This document shows positions 51 to 41,148 of a stretch of 41,148 bases of DNA, in pieces (the first letter of the stretch is position 1; the number at the start of each line of letters is the position of its first letter). The stretch is taken from positions 1 through 41,148 of the forward strand of contig NZ_AQYH01000015.1 in assembly GCF_000380505.1 (NCBI RefSeq). The letters run 5' to 3'. The notes under the pieces were generated by a model. It did no database searches and was not told where the DNA came from. It was given only the letters and a program-made list of their open reading frames with translations. Origin of the DNA: Kaistia granuli DSM 23481. GTDB taxonomy: Bacteria > Pseudomonadota > Alphaproteobacteria > Rhizobiales > Kaistiaceae. The translations under genes were made by a program, and so were the position numbers.

Positions 51-1241
51 TTATCTCGAAACCTTCTTACGCGTTGTTTTAGCTTCGCTTTCTGACTTCT
101 TCAATCTGTACTGCACGGATTTTGCACGAAATGACCCGTTCTTAACAAGCCTTCCAGCATGCTTGAGCGGGTCCGAAATCCACTCCATTTCACTCCATGC
201 GACTGGGACCGGCAAGGTGTTGATCGCATCGATTAGTGGCTGGTTCGGCAAGTGCGAGTAGACCCGGCTCATCTCTGTGGCGGCGTGCCCCAGGATCTGG
301 TCCTTGATGTGCGGGTGCACTCCGTTGATGACAAGCTGGGTGCTGACCGAGTGCCTCGCGGTGTAGGGCGAGATGTTCGTAATCCAGGTCCGACCGCGAG
401 CGCCTTCGATAGCCGAGCTCAACTGCCCGCCGCCGTCCTCCGTCATGGGATAGGCACCGCCGCGAGGAGTGCGGAACAGACGGCCGCCGCGCTTCAGCAG
501 CGCCGAGAAGAGGGGCGCCACGAAGTCGTGGATAGGTACGCCGCGCTCTGCGCCGGTCTTCGTCGCTGACAGCACCAGCCAGCGGTCATGCGGGCGAATA
601 TCGTCCTCGTCAGCGTCGAGAGAGAAAAGCTCGATCGGCCGCATCCCCGTGTAGAACAGCGCGGTCATGACGAACGCTGGGGCAGGGCTCATCGCCCCCA
701 CAAACTCCGCCGCCTTCTCATAGCTGACAGGGCGGGTGCCGGACCGCTTGGTCGGCGGTTTCAGCGCGGTACCCTTCGCCTTGCGAGGGCGTAGCCATCG
801 CCGTTCGTCAGCCCACTTGTTAGCCACCGCATGATTCCAGACGGCGACGAACGGGGTGTAGACCTGCCGGTTCTGTGTGGCAGCGCTCACGCCAGGCATC
901 AGCTTTTCAGCGACCTTCGTCAGGTCTTCCTGCCCGATCGTGTGCAGGCGGCGTTCCGCGAAGTGCCCGATAAGGCCGGTCCAGCGCCCGTTCTTTTCTT
1001 GCCCCAAGAAGCGGGGCGAGCCGCCGGCCGCCATGTATGAGACCGCTGCCTCAAGAAACGAAACGGTCGCCTTCTTCCCGTAGACACTCTGTTCGAGCAG
1101 GGAGGCCTCGCGCTGGATCCTTATCGCCTCTGCCGCTTCCTCGCTGTCAGTTCCCGTGCTCTCGAATACAGAGATGCCTCGGACGGTGCCGCGGAGATAC
1201 CAGTAGGGCGACTTGCCGCGACGGGCGAGCTTGAGGGGCAT
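51..1241 (-). CDS. int: Tyrosine site-specific integrase
   Basis: This 396-residue phage integrase should catalyse insertion and excision at tRNA-Thr. The C-terminal catalytic domain shows R201 (in GMRPIEL), K228 (in SATKTG), R296 followed by H297, H319 (in LGHA) and nucleophile Y328 (in RVYSH). The first histidine of the usual HxxR box is a tyrosine (Y293), a tolerated variation. An N-terminal arm-binding region (about 1-60) and a core-binding region (about 60-165) precede it. The stop codon lies two bases from the attL core. The 5' end overlaps the HTH gene by about 120 bases, suggesting co-expression of integrase and directionality factor. The start at 1241 fits the usual integrase N-terminus (MPLKL...). 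Confidence 0.95.
   Translation of the reverse strand: MPLKLARRGKSPYWYLRGTVRGISVFESTGTDSEEAAEAIRIQREASLLEQSVYGKKATVSFLEAAVSYMAAGGSPRFLGQEKNGRWTGLIGHFAERRLHTIGQEDLTKVAEKLMPGVSAATQNRQVYTPFVAVWNHAVANKWADERRWLRPRKAKGTALKPPTKRSGTRPVSYEKAAEFVGAMSPAPAFVMTALFYTGMRPIELFSLDADEDDIRPHDRWLVLSATKTGAERGVPIHDFVAPLFSALLKRGGRLFRTPRGGAYPMTEDGGGQLSSAIEGARGRTWITNISPYTARHSVSTQLVINGVHPHIKDQILGHAATEMSRVYSHLPNQPLIDAINTLPVPVAWSEMEWISDPLKHAGRLVKNGSFRAKSVQYRLKKSESEAKTTRKKVSR
112..129. repeat. Left arm-type repeat (candidate integrase arm site)
   Basis: TGCACGGATTTTGCACGA, inside the 3' end of the integrase gene, is repeated exactly at 40983-41000 near the right end. It contains two TGCACG units whose starts are 11 bp apart, about one helical turn. 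Identical short repeats flanking both attachment cores are what integrase arm-binding sites look like. This is inference from position and repetition only. Confidence 0.55.
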
Positions 1242-3566: not shown

Positions 3567-4336
3567 GCTGCGAGCCTTTCTGCGTCGAGGTAGGCTCGAC
3601 CGATCAGTTCCGGGATGGCGGGGATCACGGCGTTTCCGCATCCGTGCAGTCGGTCCACCCAGTTGGCAGGCCGGTCATCCACTCCGCGAAGGAGGGGTTG
3701 AGGAAAACGATCATCTCCACCGAAGGCAGAATGCGCGATGTCGAGCAGATCCGGCGCGCTACTCGGCCGCCTTTGTCCAGCCGCGCCAGCACGGACGCTT
3801 TCGAACAGTCCTTCCATTCGCTCGCCGGCAGGGTAGGCAACAATCCAGATGCGTTTGCGTGCCTGAGGGGCGCCAACGAACCAGCCGGGGACAACATCCC
3901 ACTGCGCATCATACCCGAGCGCGGCAAGGGACCTGAGAACGCGGTCAAGTCCGTCCCCGGCGAGGCGATCGACGTTTTCGATGAAGGCGACGCGCGGCCG
4001 CAGCTCGTCGATAAGCCTGGAGTACTCGAACCAGAGCCCGCTTTGGTCCCCGTCGAGGGAGGTGTCCCCTCCATGGGCGGTGGCTGCGATGGATACGTTC
4101 TGGCATGGGAATCCGCCGCAGATGGCGTCGACGGCAATTCCATCGGCGGCAAGACCCGCCGCGGTGAGTTCGCGGATGTCATGATATCGTGGGACTTTCG
4201 GCCAGTGCTTCGCCAGGACGCGGCGCGGGAAGAGCTCGATCTCGCAGAAGGCTACGGTCTCGAAGCCACGAGTTCGTTCAAGGCCGAGCGAAAAGGCGCC
4301 AATGCCGCTGAACAGGTCGAGGACGCGGAGGCTCAT
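3563..4336 (-). CDS. DNA cytosine-5 methyltransferase
   Basis: A C5-methylcytosine methyltransferase of 257 residues. Motif I (DLFSGIGAFSLGLE, about 7-20) binds AdoMet. Motif IV carries catalytic C78 in GGFPCQN. Motif VI is ENV (120-122), motif VIII QARKR (158-162) and motif X GNAV (about 234-237). The target-recognition region between VIII and X is short, so this is a compact enzyme. No restriction endonuclease is adjacent, which suggests an orphan enzyme that protects phage DNA from host restriction or alters expression in the lysogen. Both ends overlap the neighbouring genes by four bases (ATGA). Confidence 0.93.
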   Translation of the reverse strand: MSLRVLDLFSGIGAFSLGLERTRGFETVAFCEIELFPRRVLAKHWPKVPRYHDIRELTAAGLAADGIAVDAICGGFPCQNVSIAATAHGGDTSLDGDQSGLWFEYSRLIDELRPRVAFIENVDRLAGDGLDRVLRSLAALGYDAQWDVVPGWFVGAPQARKRIWIVAYPAGERMEGLFESVRAGAAGQRRPSSAPDLLDIAHSAFGGDDRFPQPLLRGVDDRPANWVDRLHGCGNAVIPAIPELIGRAYLDAERLAA

Positions 4337-5246: not shown

Positions 5247-5311
5247 GGAAATGCTCCTCTGGGCCAAACCACTCGCTGACGACGCCCCGAAGGGCGGCGC
5301 TGGGGAGGGGT

Positions 5312-5944
5312 TCAGGCGGCGAGCTTGGCGAGGGCTTCGCGGAGGCGGGCCTTCTCGGCGGTGAGGAAGGCGTCATGTTCCGCCTTGATGGCGTTGCGCA
5401 CTTCCGAGACTGCGGCATTCGTCGCCTTCTCGATTTCAGTCTTGAAGGCCTGCTGCATGACGCCCTCGACGAGGCTCTGAATGCGGGTCTTGCCGTAGTA
5501 CCGGTCGTTAGTGGGTTTCCCCGAGCTATCCACGGATGCAGTGAGATACTCCCGGCCGGTCAGCCCAATGAACTCCCGCATCGTCATGGGCTTCTCGTCA
5601 GCCTTCATGAACGGGAACTTCGGGGTTATGGGCTGGTCGATGATCTCGGCCGTGACGTTTGCGAGATGCTTGTCGATCTTCTCGACCGAAAGCGCGATGC
5701 AGCGCTCCTCGACAAGCTTCGCCAGCTTGTTGTTGCCGTATTCACCGACAACCACACGCGCCGCCGCTTCGACGATCAGCGCCTCCATGTCTCGCTGGGT
5801 ATAGCTACGCATGGAGACATGGAATTCGATGCCGCGCCCCTCGGCCTCCGTCGTCGCGACCATATTGGTGTCGACGTCCTGCGGCTCGTTGGGGCCATCC
5901 CATTGGGCCTCGGCCATTTCATGGGTGCTGGTGATCTCGTCCAT
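5312..5944 (-). CDS. First gene of the leftward early operon, unknown function
   Basis: This protein of 210 residues is mostly helical and acidic to neutral. It has a central EALIVEAAARVVVGEYGNNK segment, a PMTMREFIGLTGREYL motif and a long C-terminal charged helix (EVRNAIKAEHDAFLTAEKARLREAL) that may form a coiled coil. The start at 5944 has GGAGGG seven bases upstream and is the first gene after the operator-covered leftward promoter, so it should be among the first made on induction. I do not recognise the family. Confidence 0.68.
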   Translation of the reverse strand: MDEITSTHEMAEAQWDGPNEPQDVDTNMVATTEAEGRGIEFHVSMRSYTQRDMEALIVEAAARVVVGEYGNNKLAKLVEERCIALSVEKIDKHLANVTAEIIDQPITPKFPFMKADEKPMTMREFIGLTGREYLTASVDSSGKPTNDRYYGKTRIQSLVEGVMQQAFKTEIEKATNAAVSEVRNAIKAEHDAFLTAEKARLREALAKLAA

Positions 5945-25345: not shown

Positions 25346-25578
25346 GCCGAACTTGGCCAACGCTCCCGCCGCTTCCGGGCCCGAATATCCCGGTGATCGA
25401 CCCGGCCACCGGCACAATGACACGCGACTGGTACCGGTATTGGACCGTCGCAGACCCCATCCTTCGCGGCGTTCTCGCCCTCTCAATCAATGATCTCTCC
25501 GACATCGACGCAGCGACGCCCGCCAATGGCGACGTTCTGACGTTCGTTTCGGCCGATAGCCGCTGGAAAGGCATCTGA
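25342..25578 (+). CDS. Small tail-associated protein
   Basis: A protein of 78 residues (MSRTWPTLPPLPGPNIPVID, PATGTMTRDWYRYW), a short motif found in many phage tail and fibre genes. It probably attaches to the tail. ATG 25342 overlaps the previous stop (ATGA). No catalytic motif. A tail-needle (gp26) homologue was not found here. Confidence 0.65.
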   Translation: MSRTWPTLPPLPGPNIPVIDPATGTMTRDWYRYWTVADPILRGVLALSINDLSDIDAATPANGDVLTFVSADSRWKGI

Positions 25579-25579
25579 C

Positions 25580-26233
25580 ATGGGCTTGAAAGACTTGTTC
25601 TCAGACAAGAACGAGGAGAAGGCCGCCCAGGCGCTCAAGGACGGCTATGGCAACGCCAAGAACGAGGCATATGGTCAGATCGATACTGGTGTTTCCAACG
25701 CCAATGCCGACTACACGAAAGCGCTCGGGCTCTACGCACCGCTATCCGACACCTACAACCGTGGCTCGTCGCTCTATGCTGATGCCCTCGGCCTGAATGG
25801 TGCAGACGGCAACGGTAGAGCGGCCGGCGCCTATCAGACCGGCCCCGGCTATCAGTTCGCCACCGACCAGGCCATCCAAGCGCTGGAAAGGCGGGCAGGA
25901 GCGCAGGGGCGCCTTGGTTCGGGGCAGACTGGCCTCGACACGCTGAGCGCCGTCTATGGGCTTGCAGATCAGGATTACGGCAATTGGCTCGAGCGTCTGA
26001 GCGGCTACGACGGCAAGGCGCTGGGCGCCGCCGACAGCCAGGCGGGCCTCTACGGCGCCAAGGCGGGCATGGGCTACGACGCTGGCGTGACGAAGGCCGG
26101 GTATGGCTGGAACGCCGCCACAGGCGCTGCAGGCGCACAGTCCGACTTCCTGAAGGGCAAGGACCAGACCGGCGCCAACATCATCGGGACCGCGCTCGGG
26201 GGCATCTCCGCCGCCAAGAAGATTTTCGGGTAG
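25580..26233 (+). CDS. Gly/Ala-rich probable ejection protein
   Basis: A protein of 217 residues, rich in Gly, Ala, Asp and Tyr (YDGKALGAADSQAGLYGAKA). A helical GYQFATDQAIQALERRAG region is followed by a C-terminal hydrophobic IIGTALGGISAAKKIFG. It occupies the position of P22 gp7, and such low-complexity proteins are ejected to build a conduit across the envelope. The function is inferred from order and composition. Confidence 0.62.
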   Translation: MGLKDLFSDKNEEKAAQALKDGYGNAKNEAYGQIDTGVSNANADYTKALGLYAPLSDTYNRGSSLYADALGLNGADGNGRAAGAYQTGPGYQFATDQAIQALERRAGAQGRLGSGQTGLDTLSAVYGLADQDYGNWLERLSGYDGKALGAADSQAGLYGAKAGMGYDAGVTKAGYGWNAATGAAGAQSDFLKGKDQTGANIIGTALGGISAAKKIFG

Positions 26234-39662: not shown

Positions 39663-39861
39663 TTCCGCCCGCCTCGAATTCGACCGCGGCAAGCTCATCC
39701 TTCACAGCGACGGCCCTTGGCAGGAACTGACCGAGTACGAATTCCTGCATCTGTTCGCGTCGTGCTGCGACGCCGGCCGGGCCCTAGCGATGCACAAGGT
39801 CTACCCGCCGGCCACTGATTACACCCAGGCAGTGTTCCCTCCGGAGCCCCAGCTGCCCTAG
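39655..39861 (+). CDS. Hypothetical protein (68 aa)
   Basis: The product (LEFDRGKLILHSDGPWQELT, EFLHLFASCCDAGRALAMHK) overlaps the phosphoesterase gene by eight bases. It has a tandem cysteine pair but no clear motif. Unknown role. Confidence 0.55.
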   Translation: MASSARLEFDRGKLILHSDGPWQELTEYEFLHLFASCCDAGRALAMHKVYPPATDYTQAVFPPEPQLP

Positions 39862-39991
39862 CCGTCGCCTTTCCTCAGAAAGTTTTGAGGCCGTTTCTTT
39901 CTGATCTGCCACTTCGGCAGGCGACCTGGGCGCCTTCCTCGACAAGGTGAGCGGGCTTACCCAGATCTCACTCGCCTGATAGCCTCAGGCC
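39862..39991. other. Intergenic with weak hairpins
   Basis: CCTCA (39873-39877) pairs with TGAGG (39886-39890), followed by CCGTTTCTTT, a weak terminator for the late genes. A second hairpin, CTGCC/GGCAG, lies at 39906-39920. An open fragment (39905-39979) reads DLGAFLDKVSGLTQISLA but has no start codon, so it may be a gene relic. Confidence 0.35.
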
Positions 39992-40093
39992 ATGCTGCTC
40001 CGAACCCTCGTCTATGCCGGCATCGTCGCGCTGAGCCTGCTGCTCTGGTGGTCCTGGATCAAGCTCGCCTCAGACATCATCGGTTGGGTGTGA
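39992..40093 (+). CDS. 33-residue membrane peptide
   Basis: Starts MLLRTLVYAGIVALSLLLWW and ends SDIIGWV, a single membrane helix. CAGG precedes the ATG. Its end overlaps the converging zinc-ribbon gene by 17 bases. It is similar in design to the small protein at 40828-40953, but not in sequence. Could be a small holin-type peptide; uncertain. Confidence 0.42.
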   Translation: MLLRTLVYAGIVALSLLLWWSWIKLASDIIGWV

Positions 40094-40319
40094 ACTTGGG
40101 CAGGTGAGGGTGTATCCGCATCGAGCAGTTGGCCGAGCCGCAGTGGGAGCACTTGAGTAGCCCGCGCCCGATCTGTCTTGGCCCTTTGACAGGTGCATCC
40201 ATCCCGTACCGCTCCGCCATCGCAGGCATGTCCACCTCGACCGCCGACTTGTTGCACTCGTGGCAATAGGCGTAGAGGCGATATTCGCCGTCGATGATCT
40301 CTCGGATGGTCCCGGTCAT
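40077..40319 (-). CDS. Small zinc-ribbon-like protein
   Basis: A protein of 80 residues with two cysteine knuckles, CHEC (about 19-22) and CSHC (about 57-60), plus a nearby NCSM, in the pattern of a four-Cys zinc ribbon. It may bind DNA, RNA or protein. AAGGA lies just before ATG 40319; the longer frame to 40436 adds sequence with no good site. It reads away from the structured RNA at 40452 and may be regulated together with it. Confidence 0.65.
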   Translation of the reverse strand: MTGTIREIIDGEYRLYAYCHECNKSAVEVDMPAMAERYGMDAPVKGPRQIGRGLLKCSHCGSANCSMRIHPHLPKFTPNR

Positions 40320-40440
40320 GTTCCTTTTTTGTTCACGGAAAGCGATGGCCGTCAAGAGTGATTTCCAAAACGCTTGAAACCGGCTGAAAATGGCAGAGTT
40401 CTGCGCCCGGTTGCCGATTCCCTTTCGATTCGGCATGGGG

Positions 40441-40446
40441 TAGAAT
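40441..40446 (+). promoter_or_regulatory. -10 element of the structured-RNA promoter
   Basis: TAGAAT matches the -10 consensus at five of six bases. A start seven bases on would be about 40453, where the first RNA stem begins. A clear -35 at 16-18 bp was not seen (TTGCCG lies 24 bp upstream). An inverted repeat (TGCCGA 40412-40417 and TCGGCA 40430-40435) lies just upstream. Confidence 0.4.
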
Positions 40447-40451
40447 GCGGG

Positions 40452-40815
40452 CGACGCGGCAGGCGCTGGAGCAACGGCTTACCTGAGGACGTTCGGGGCA
40501 CCCGCCAGGGGCCGCGTCAACAGTTCGATTTCGACGCGGCGGCGCTGAAGGAAGCGCGGAGTGACTGGCCCCCGGAGTGCACCCGACCAGCACGAGCACC
40601 TTAGGTAAGCCGGTATCAAGCCCGGCCCGCGTCGATCCTATCGCTCACGCTTCGGTGTGAGCCACGACAAGGTGCGTGACACGGTGAAATTCTGCCTGCC
40701 GTAGAGCGTCCTGCAGATTTACAGGACGGATCGCCTTGTGGGGTTCGCTGGCAGGCCCCACCGCGCCGACCATCATCAGCCCGGCTCTGTCTTCGGACGG
40801 GGCCGGGCTTTTTTG
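40452..40815 (+). ncRNA. Putative structured non-coding RNA
   Basis: No gene is supported on the plus strand here, yet nested pairings fill the segment. Outer stem CGACGCGG (40452-40459) pairs with CCGCGTCG (40627-40634). CGGCTTACCTGAGG (40475-40488) pairs with CCTTAGGTAAGCCG (40599-40612), 14 bp. Inside are TCGGG-GCAC-CC with GG-a-GTGC-a-CCCGA, GCCAG/CTGGC, GCCGCGTC/GACGCGGC and GCGCT/AGCGC. A second part has a cUUCGg hairpin (40643-40662), CGTCCTG/CAGGACG (40707-40728) and GTGGGG/CCCCAC, whose loop GGCAGG can pair with CCTGCC (40695-40700) as a pseudoknot. It ends in a strong terminator. I do not recognise a known class. Confidence 0.62.
40778..40814 (+). terminator. UUCG-loop intrinsic terminator
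   Basis: A 14-bp stem starts AGCCCGGC (40778-40785), continues TCTGTC and closes on TTCG; the other strand ends GCCGGGCT (40802-40809). It includes G-U pairs and no mismatch, and six T follow. It ends a rightward transcript that contains no gene after 40093, the best evidence that a non-coding RNA is made here. Confidence 0.92.
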
Positions 40816-40827
40816 CGTTTCGCTGCC

Positions 40828-40953
40828 TCACCACCCCGCCACCGATCTCACCAGTTTGAACACCCCAGCACCCAACTGCCAGAGCAGCATAGCCCATAGG
40901 CCGATCACTACGATCCAGCCGGCGATAGGTATGCGGAGGCGGCGGTAGGACAT
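40828..40953 (-). CDS. 41-residue membrane protein
   Basis: Reads MSYRRLRIPIAGWIVVIGLW and continues as a hydrophobic helix, then FKLVRSVAGW. The positive N-terminus and single helix suggest an inner-membrane peptide. GGAG lies five bases before ATG 40953. It lies between the RNA terminator and attR and points leftward, so it is likely expressed in the lysogen. Function unknown. Confidence 0.52.
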   Translation of the reverse strand: MSYRRLRIPIAGWIVVIGLWAMLLWQLGAGVFKLVRSVAGW

Positions 40954-40982
40954 GGGGGCTCCGGAACGTTCGCGGAACATCG

Positions 40983-41007
40983 TGCACGGATTTTGCACGA
41001 GTGCACG
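40983..41007. repeat. Right arm-type repeat
   Basis: The same 18-mer as at 112-129 (TGCACGGATTTTGCACGA) occupies 40983-41000, and a third TGCACG follows at 41002-41007. It is about 100 bp from the right core; the left copy is about 60 bp from the left core. In circular phage DNA both would flank attP. Confidence 0.55.
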
Positions 41008-41099
41008 TGCAGTTTCACGCTTCGTTCTGCCCAAATGTGCCAGGTGGCTTAGCTAGGGCGTTTCTAGCTTGGCAGTAAGTATTTGATTTTATTGAGGGA

Positions 41100-41148
41100 A
41101 ATGGTGCTGCAAGAGAGGATTGAACTCTCGACCTCTCCCTTACCAAGG
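41100..41148. other. attR core
   Basis: Exact copy of 1-49. The window stops at the end of the repeat, so the host flank is not visible. As the core is the 3' half of a minus-strand tRNA, the intact tRNA must extend to the right. Confidence 0.93.
41102..41148 (-). tRNA. tRNA-Thr(GGT), 3' part only
   Basis: Read on the minus strand: CC-TTGGTAA-GG of the anticodon arm (anticodon GGT), the rest of the anticodon stem GGGAG, variable loop AGGTC, T-stem GAGAG/CTCTC with TTCAATC, acceptor strand TTGCAGC, then ACCA. The 5' half lies outside the window. Prophage insertion restores this 3' part, keeping the tRNA functional. Confidence 0.88.

Follow-up and report, generated by a model that had tools for sequence, protein, structure and literature searches.

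A phage RNA family with a conserved, probably tRNA-like frame and a variable insert, found through a Kaistia granuli prophage

The stable RNAs C (species 1 RNA) and D of phage T4 are annotated as 139 and 119 nt long. They lie beside tRNA genes and are annotated just as small stable RNAs. Read by eye, the 3' end of RNA C contains a T-arm, CCGGG-UUCGAAU-CCCGG, and then a strand able to pair with the 5' end. RNA C is an example of the tRNA-like RNAs already known from phage tRNA clusters. The tmRNAs and permuted tmRNAs (RF04321) contain a tRNA-like domain with a large insert in place of the anticodon arm. YrlA-type bacterial Y RNAs contain a tRNA-like module joined to a protein-binding arm. Theta ribozymes fold as an HDV-like double pseudoknot. 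GOLLD and ROOL are phage or prophage RNAs of unknown function that are often found near tRNA islands. A passage of PMC12286853 puts GOLLD at more than 800 nt, far larger than the family RNA described here, and a passage of PMC10879173 presents theta (HDV-like) ribozymes as small structured phage RNAs next to tRNA genes.

The family resembles GOLLD and ROOL in its phage origin. It resembles tmRNA in having a large insert where the anticodon arm would be, and differs from it in the CCA, which is not found in the family (NCCA in 2 of the 86 members listed). Rfam tmRNA models gave no match over member cores in the loci scanned. T4 RNA C differs from the family in its normal 7-nt T-loop, and a GAWGGA hairpin was not seen in it; the family covariance model gave no match in the T4 genome at E up to 0.1. 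Unlike theta ribozymes, the family has a nested multi-branch junction and no known cleavage activity. By this comparison, T4 RNA C, tmRNA and the Y RNAs are analogues in kind.

The window is the whole stretch of DNA that was analysed, 41,148 nt. It is a complete contig of the Kaistia granuli genome and is identical to IMG/VR record 2521172615_000001. Profile searches matched an integrase, a terminase, a portal, a major head protein, an endolysin and a Sak4-like protein, and the window is therefore a prophage. PHROG annotation covered the window, one ORF of viral contig L041, one ORF of K. terrae and the prophage of a relative outside the genus (G223). The contig ends contained the following features.

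51..1241, minus strand: phage integrase by profile search, at the opposite contig end from the RNA
41105..41148, minus strand: 3' half of a tRNA, cut by the contig end (26.1 bits, under the 29-bit cut-off)

The tRNA half was the best sub-threshold Rfam match in 39850-41148. ARAGORN called no tRNA in the window, and no Rfam family reached its gathering score there. GOLLD and ROOL, to which a preliminary description could not match the RNA, were among the Rfam models without a match in the window, and identity with them was rejected. The same description had placed the RNA beside a tRNA attachment site. An att site at the tRNA half is plausible; because the window is a complete contig, what is present is a tRNA half at a contig end. 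The half is on the strand opposite to the RNA, which counts against our best explanation.

The preliminary description had proposed a new class of phage-encoded structured RNA in the 364 bases at 40452-40815. A new class is supported, with compensatory changes in homologues beyond controls. The conserved core is only about 103 nt, and in place of a large ornate RNA the class is a widespread and probably tRNA-like one. The core contains P1, a 2-nt linker, the P2 hairpin, a variable stretch, an A, the P3 hairpin and the other strand of P1.

40532..40539, plus strand: P1 5' strand, acceptor-stem-like, pairing with 40627-40634 by comparison
40540..40541, plus strand: linker CG, 2 nt (C-R in 78 of 79 first-set members)
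40542..40557, plus strand: P2 hairpin GCGCU-GAAGGA-AGCGC, D-arm-like, 5 bp (family P2 loop GAWGGA)
40558..40607, plus strand: variable stretch of about 51 nt, in the place of the anticodon arm
40608, plus strand: A immediately 5' of P3 (80 of 82 P2-anchored members)
40609..40626, plus strand: P3 hairpin GCCGG-UAUCAAGC-CCGGC, T-arm-like, 5 bp, abutting P1
40627..40634, plus strand: P1 3' strand, 0 nt after P3
40475..40488, plus strand: 5' strand of a 14-bp alternative stem (3' strand 40599-40612)

The 3' arm 40627-40634 has two candidate 5' partners, 40452-40459 and 40532-40539. The former pairing, described earlier as an outer 8-bp stem, is in the predicted minimum-energy fold. Comparison showed that 40532-40539, which adjoins the P2 hairpin, is the conserved partner instead. 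The family model scored 40532-40634 at 77.1 bits (E 3.7e-13), partly by construction, since the window copy is among the 37 model sequences. A pairing-based scanner found the window core independently. The 14-bp stem, also described before, is in the predicted minimum-energy fold and competes with the family fold, because its 3' strand shares bases with the 5' side of P3. Predictions for the full-length window transcript put the family fold 18 kcal/mol above the minimum-energy fold and give pair probabilities of 0 for the family's P1 and P3 and 0.8 for P2, which counts against our best explanation. The module folded alone is predicted to take the family fold. Cleavage at the P1 5' end would, by these predictions, free the module from the competing fold. 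Alternatively, the window copy may be regulated or decayed.

The surrounding segment also folds well. Positions 40445-40825 gave -192.4 kcal/mol, which beat 100 of 100 dinucleotide shuffles (z = -3.99). The many helices of the preliminary description are borne out, with 21 runs of at least three stacked pairs in the minimum-energy fold. The segment contained these further features.

40441..40446, plus strand: -10-like box TAGAAT (GGGGTAGAAT and neighbours also in K. adipata, K. terrae and viral contig L041)
40453..40518, plus strand: candidate decayed first copy of the module, by inference only (GACGCGGC at 40453-40460 could pair with GCCGCGTC at 40511-40518)
40643..40662, plus strand: hairpin GCUCACGC-UUCG-GUGUGAGC, in Kaistia copies and viral contig L041 only
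40663..40777, plus strand: second variable stretch of the Kaistia type
40778..40814, plus strand: intrinsic terminator, a 14-bp UUCG hairpin and a T tail

The TAGAAT box is present as described, 5 bases before the first stem and not 7. It alone suggests a promoter; a sigma-70 scan of 40300-40900 gave none. The candidate first copy was missed by the family model. The UUCG terminator was read correctly, and the Kaistia phage copy has the appearance of an independent gene that carries its own terminator. The terminator sequence AGCCCGGCTCTGTCTTCGGACGGGGCCGGGCT is repeated, slightly altered, in several Kaistia genomes (G000 C1 6974-7009, G014 C1 1423869-1423909 and others). CCTGCC (40695-40700) and GGCAGG (40750-40755), which had been proposed as a pseudoknot, do form a helix in the minimum-energy fold; it is nested there, so a pseudoknot is unnecessary.

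DNA searches retrieved relatives from K. adipata (G014), K. terrae (G026, two places), G023, a second place in the own genome (G000) and one IMG/VR contig, L041. The Kaistia copies are nearly identical in the promoter-like box, two short blocks and the UUCG hairpin, and their intervening sequence differs. Folded separately, K. adipata, K. terrae C7 and L041 give minimum-energy structures with one common skeleton. The K. terrae P3 loop is 5 nt long (CAAGC), which counts against our best explanation. Weaker copies are located near 3395229 of G023 C1, near 76100 of K. terrae C1 and near 162595 of C2 in the own genome. They lie beside tRNA genes for Met (G023), Pro and Gln (K. terrae C1) and Val (own C2), on either strand; the tRNA-Met beside the decayed G023 copy is on the opposite strand to the RNA, again counting against our best explanation. 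The family model did not match these three copies, which may be what is left of lost prophages. Divergently encoded beside the Kaistia RNA is a small conserved protein (DIT-RL-AALDPES...). The window does not contain it, and PHROG and Pfam gave no match for the L041 copy. It was found at four places.

L041 923-1102, plus strand: DIT-RL-AALDPES protein
L084 9625-9978, minus strand: DIT-RL-AALDPES protein
L085 15909-16211, minus strand: DIT-RL-AALDPES protein
L089 10646-10888, plus strand: DIT-RL-AALDPES protein

An RNA restricted to Kaistia fitted these early homologues, all from Kaistia and one viral contig, and was overturned by later scans. A 59-nt model retrieved one clear relative outside the genus, G223, among 397 genomes of the order. 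The prophage that contains the G223 copy has genes for integrase, terminase, portal and head, and a tRNA-Gly gene lies 253 nt upstream of the RNA. A gapped pattern retrieved viral contig L127. Comparison of G223 and L127 showed a constant P2 loop GAWGGA and a constant P3 hairpin, with stems that change in step. The G223 prophage contains a small ORF (L124 10086-10310, plus strand; MGHSARRRHDLARMKKK...) between the RNA core and the terminator; PHROG gave no match for it. In L127 the same terminator follows the core directly, without this ORF.

The 17-base P3 pattern matched at least 120 stretches in IMG/VR. A scanner that demanded P1, P2 and P3 retrieved at least 79 distinct members, the first set, and 0 matches from the reversed sequences of six sources. 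A P2 pattern matched at least 120 stretches, which gave at least 105 contexts. From the 105 listed, 86 with an unambiguous P1 were kept as the P2-anchored set; 17 without P1 and 2 ambiguous ones were left out. The family is present at at least 132 IMG/VR loci (sets of 74 and 73, with 15 shared), where the second set takes 8-nt P3 loops only. Nine phage records were searched whole, picked for BLAST matches and with T4 as a comparison, and the family model found the RNA in six. The carriers are Caulobacter phage DMCA, with the RNA at 25553-25687 of PQ480021.1, Komagataeibacter phages phiKX1 and phiKX2, Pseudanabaena phage Pan3, Acidovorax phage AP1, which has an additional weak match of 19.1 bits, and Alcaligenes phage QDWS595. 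The matched places have no annotated feature. Bordetella phage PHB04 and Vibrio phage pVco-5, like T4, gave no match over their whole genomes at E up to 0.1. Strictly filtered scans at class and phylum level retrieved the family from 3 of 337 and 3 of 398 bacterial genomes, own genome included. Rfam 15 gave no match at its thresholds to any member core in the loci scanned. The family was not found described in the literature searched, with subscription papers outside that coverage, and it is apparently undescribed.

Several other matches were set aside. The 21-29-bit covariance-model matches in the family scan looked like coding or chance sequence. Matches to the pattern GGGGTAGAATGCGGGCGA in the related contigs L082 and L083 were chance matches in coding sequence, and 26 of 28 GCGTCRATCCTATCRC stretches were not homologues. 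Some contigs showed further arrangements. L242 contains two RNA modules in tandem with different inserts (1703-2035). L356 contains two P2 motifs 200 nt apart (5281-5500). L151 contains a family RNA and, at 1542-1615 on the minus strand, an RF02917 Burkholderiales-2 RNA (93.5 bits).

The members almost certainly form a family with one conserved secondary structure, judging from their sequences. The first set was found with pairing required, so its alignment and tRNA-neighbour results are biased towards pairing. Choices by P3 only and by P2 are fairer tests, although the P2-anchored choice still needs a P1 complement. When contexts were chosen by P3 only, C-R-N5-GAWGGA was found upstream in 88 of 119 distinct viral contexts among the matches listed; controls gave 5 of 119 for reversed sequence and 1 of 119 for the reverse complement. 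The pairing test used the 87 contexts with exactly one such motif. Among the matches listed, P2 was 5/5 Watson-Crick in 76 of these 87, and the inner 6 bp of P1 consisted of Watson-Crick pairs throughout in 69 of 87 (mean 3.4 and maximum 9 over 1000 partner shuffles), with 41 different P1 hexamers. When members were chosen by P2 and a P1 complement, a 5-bp hairpin abutted the P1 3' strand in 82 of 86 among the matches listed, compared with 292 of 8600 random positions (3.4%). These listed members contain 20 different P3 stems. Where free to vary, the P3 loop has the consensus U-D-U-C-R-A-N-Y. Among the 74 8-nt loops listed, U1 is present in 62, U3 in 71, C4 in 72, R5 in 71, A6 in 74 and Y8 in 70. 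In an alignment of 37 members, for whose selection pairing was a requirement, 98.9% of the cells pair, and both sides vary in 12 of the 18 pairs. The covariation score was 0.578 versus 0.150 for shuffled sequences, and slid versions were 26-40% paired. The G102 P3 is GCAGG/CCUGC, a compensated change. All 79 first-set members have GG in the P2 loop. The preliminary description had asked for compensatory changes in the paired positions of homologues, and the RNA survived this test, with P1, P2 and P3 all covarying.

The variable stretch occupies the place of the anticodon arm. It is 44-174 nt long, with a median of 80. In 21 of the 79 listed members a helix scoring at least 6 stops 1-2 nt short of P3 (20 shuffles: mean 4.7, maximum 8). 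The window, L041 and K. adipata have identical scaffolds and 3' flanks that are 95-100% alike. Their variable stretches are 51-57% alike, with shuffled means of 50-57%. L151, L214 and L231 show the same pattern, an identical scaffold and payloads whose likeness does not exceed that of shuffled sequence. Scaffold identity was at least 0.92 in 69 pairs, and payload identity was at least 0.7 in one of these, L141/L218 (97%). By these sequence comparisons, the payload is replaced wholesale between relatives beside a near-constant scaffold.

The detected tRNA and tmRNA genes near the RNA are on its strand in 29 of 29 cases within 3 kb (first set) and in 24 of 24 within 1.5 kb (P2-anchored set); the two sets overlap. 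Of the members listed, 11 of 79 have such a gene within 3 kb and 11 of 86 have one within 1.5 kb. The other 68 of 79 and 75 of 86 listed contexts have no tRNA nearby, which counts against our best explanation, and many of the contigs are fragments. Three examples show the RNA inside tRNA arrays. The L211 RNA has tRNA-Cys 73 nt upstream and tRNA-His 12 nt downstream, and the L321 RNA has tRNA-Leu 20 nt upstream and tRNA-Lys 7 nt downstream. The third, the L336 RNA, has tRNA-Gly 6 nt upstream. A permuted tmRNA ends 17 nt ahead of the L193 RNA. The variable stretch of the L197 RNA contains a tRNA-like gene, at 27-97 of the RNA's 135 nt. Permuted tmRNAs were found on three contigs.

L286 3646-4017 (Bordetella phage PHB04): permuted tmRNA, ARAGORN tag ANDDYIRAAA, RF04321 match
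L193 3432-3751: permuted tmRNA, ARAGORN tag ANDEVYDNRLAA, RF04321 match
L287 1572-1948 (Alcaligenes phage QDWS595): permuted tmRNA, ARAGORN tag ANDNVYAAAA

The annotation tables of the PHB04 and QDWS595 records have no feature at these genes. Directly after the PHB04 tmRNA (L286 about 3970-4025) comes a long stem of the P1 type together with a hairpin of the P3 type, without P2, and by eye the loop of this hairpin is altered (GGAUAAGC). This single case fits the predicted P2-P3 loop contact and proves nothing.

The fold is likely to be tRNA-like. The order of stem, 2 nt, hairpin, insert, 1 nt, hairpin, 0 nt and stem matches tRNA topology, with counterparts in the acceptor, positions 8-9, the D-arm, the anticodon arm with the variable loop, and the T-arm. 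The tRNA T-loop consensus is UUCRANY. The P3 loop has this consensus plus one extra base and is 8 nt long, not 7. Marks of a tRNA-like structure are present as read from sequence and covariation, namely the 2-nt linker, putative D- and T-arm-like hairpins, a UUCRA-type loop and no gap between T-arm and acceptor. Those of a tRNA itself were not found (a 7-bp acceptor, an anticodon arm with a 7-nt loop, CCA, and a call by ARAGORN or RF00005). P1 varies from 7, the search minimum, to 14 or more bp, and NCCA follows the seventh P1 pair in only 2 of the 86 P2-anchored members listed. Because P1 is not fixed at 7 bp and NCCA is rare, the RNA is not a chargeable tRNA as encoded. These points and the 8-nt loop count against our best explanation.

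Three other identities were dropped. P3 resembles the twister hairpin GCCGG-NNNCAAGC-CCGG; only P3 is similar, and Rfam scans gave no twister match in the loci scanned. A CsrA sponge, considered for the GGA loops, was abandoned when P2 and P3 proved to be a D-arm-like and T-arm-like pair. A TnpB guide RNA was considered for the transposase upstream in phage DMCA, but such a neighbour is not the rule.

Our best explanation is a phage tRNA mimic whose conserved frame presents a rapidly exchanged payload. Taken whole, it stands at about even chances. The mimic is argued from topology and loop sequence. P1 would be acceptor-like, P2 the D-arm, and P3 the T-arm stacked on P1. The GG of the P2 loop would dock with the U and C of the P3 loop, as G18 and G19 of tRNA do with positions 55 and 56. 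The hypervariable domain would take the place of the anticodon arm. The RNA would come from a gene of its own or from a phage tRNA/tmRNA array, and enzymes that recognise the T-arm/acceptor stack would trim it, with RNase P as the first of them. The fold would keep the RNA stable, and the exchanged payload would act in trans on host or rival-phage molecules. Display of a payload, as a mechanism, is somewhat doubtful. A more specific version is tentative at most. It is a natural form of tRNA-scaffold display, in which a swappable payload is recombined via identical scaffold arms, so that each phage has its own version against host or rival-phage RNAs or tRNA-sensing defences.

The RNA may instead be a decoy, a tRNA-like elbow without an anticodon arm that binds and sequesters a tRNA-reading host factor (RNase P, tRNA-modifying enzymes, anticodon nucleases or another tRNA-sensing defence), with the variable stretch as a spacer or shield. 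The conserved parts are exactly the acceptor, D and T elements that such factors read, the variable stretch is unconserved, and the RNA is associated with phage tRNA arrays. A pure spacer, however, need not span 44-174 nt or keep a helix beside P3, and we consider the decoy unlikely. Less probable still is a folded processing or insulating element in longer phage transcripts, such as tRNA arrays and 5' leaders, that is not a free RNA. It would account for the members that abut tRNAs and for several that stop 10-40 nt short of an ORF that has a ribosome-binding-like sequence. It fits poorly with the members that precede a terminator or convergent genes, with the Kaistia copy's own terminator, and with payload replacement beside an identical scaffold, which would be unexpected of a plain processing site.

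A phage relative of YrlA would share the plan of a tRNA-like module and another arm, with the variable stretch as the protein-binding arm. This tether is very improbable. Ro60/TROVE (PF05731) was found in 0 of 23 phage and virus records, some of them fragments, and is absent from the own genome. Of 7 bacterial genomes only one had it, with 24.9 bits versus a cut-off of 23, and Rfam scans gave no YrlA match. We give hardly any credence to chance, that is, a stem-rich, GC-rich sequence or a DNA-level element with no RNA role. GC-rich sequence does fold readily, the window z is only -4, and the G223 relative folds no better than shuffles (z -0.78, 40/200). Against it stand the covariation, G-U pairs included, and the T-loop consensus over at least 132 IMG/VR loci, as well as the one-sided strand association with tRNA genes.

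To return to the tRNA mimic with an exchanged payload, the RNA is unannotated in phage records of Caulobacter, Komagataeibacter, Acidovorax, Alcaligenes and Pseudanabaena, and Rfam 15 and ARAGORN gave no match to it. Wholesale replacement of an insert on a near-constant scaffold is a signature of strong diversifying pressure, and phage RNA effectors or decoys thereby become directly testable in culturable phages. The family may also bear on the role of the small stable RNAs in phage tRNA clusters, such as T4 RNAs C and D. It suggests that a tRNA-like frame serves phages as a mount for RNA parts that change fast.
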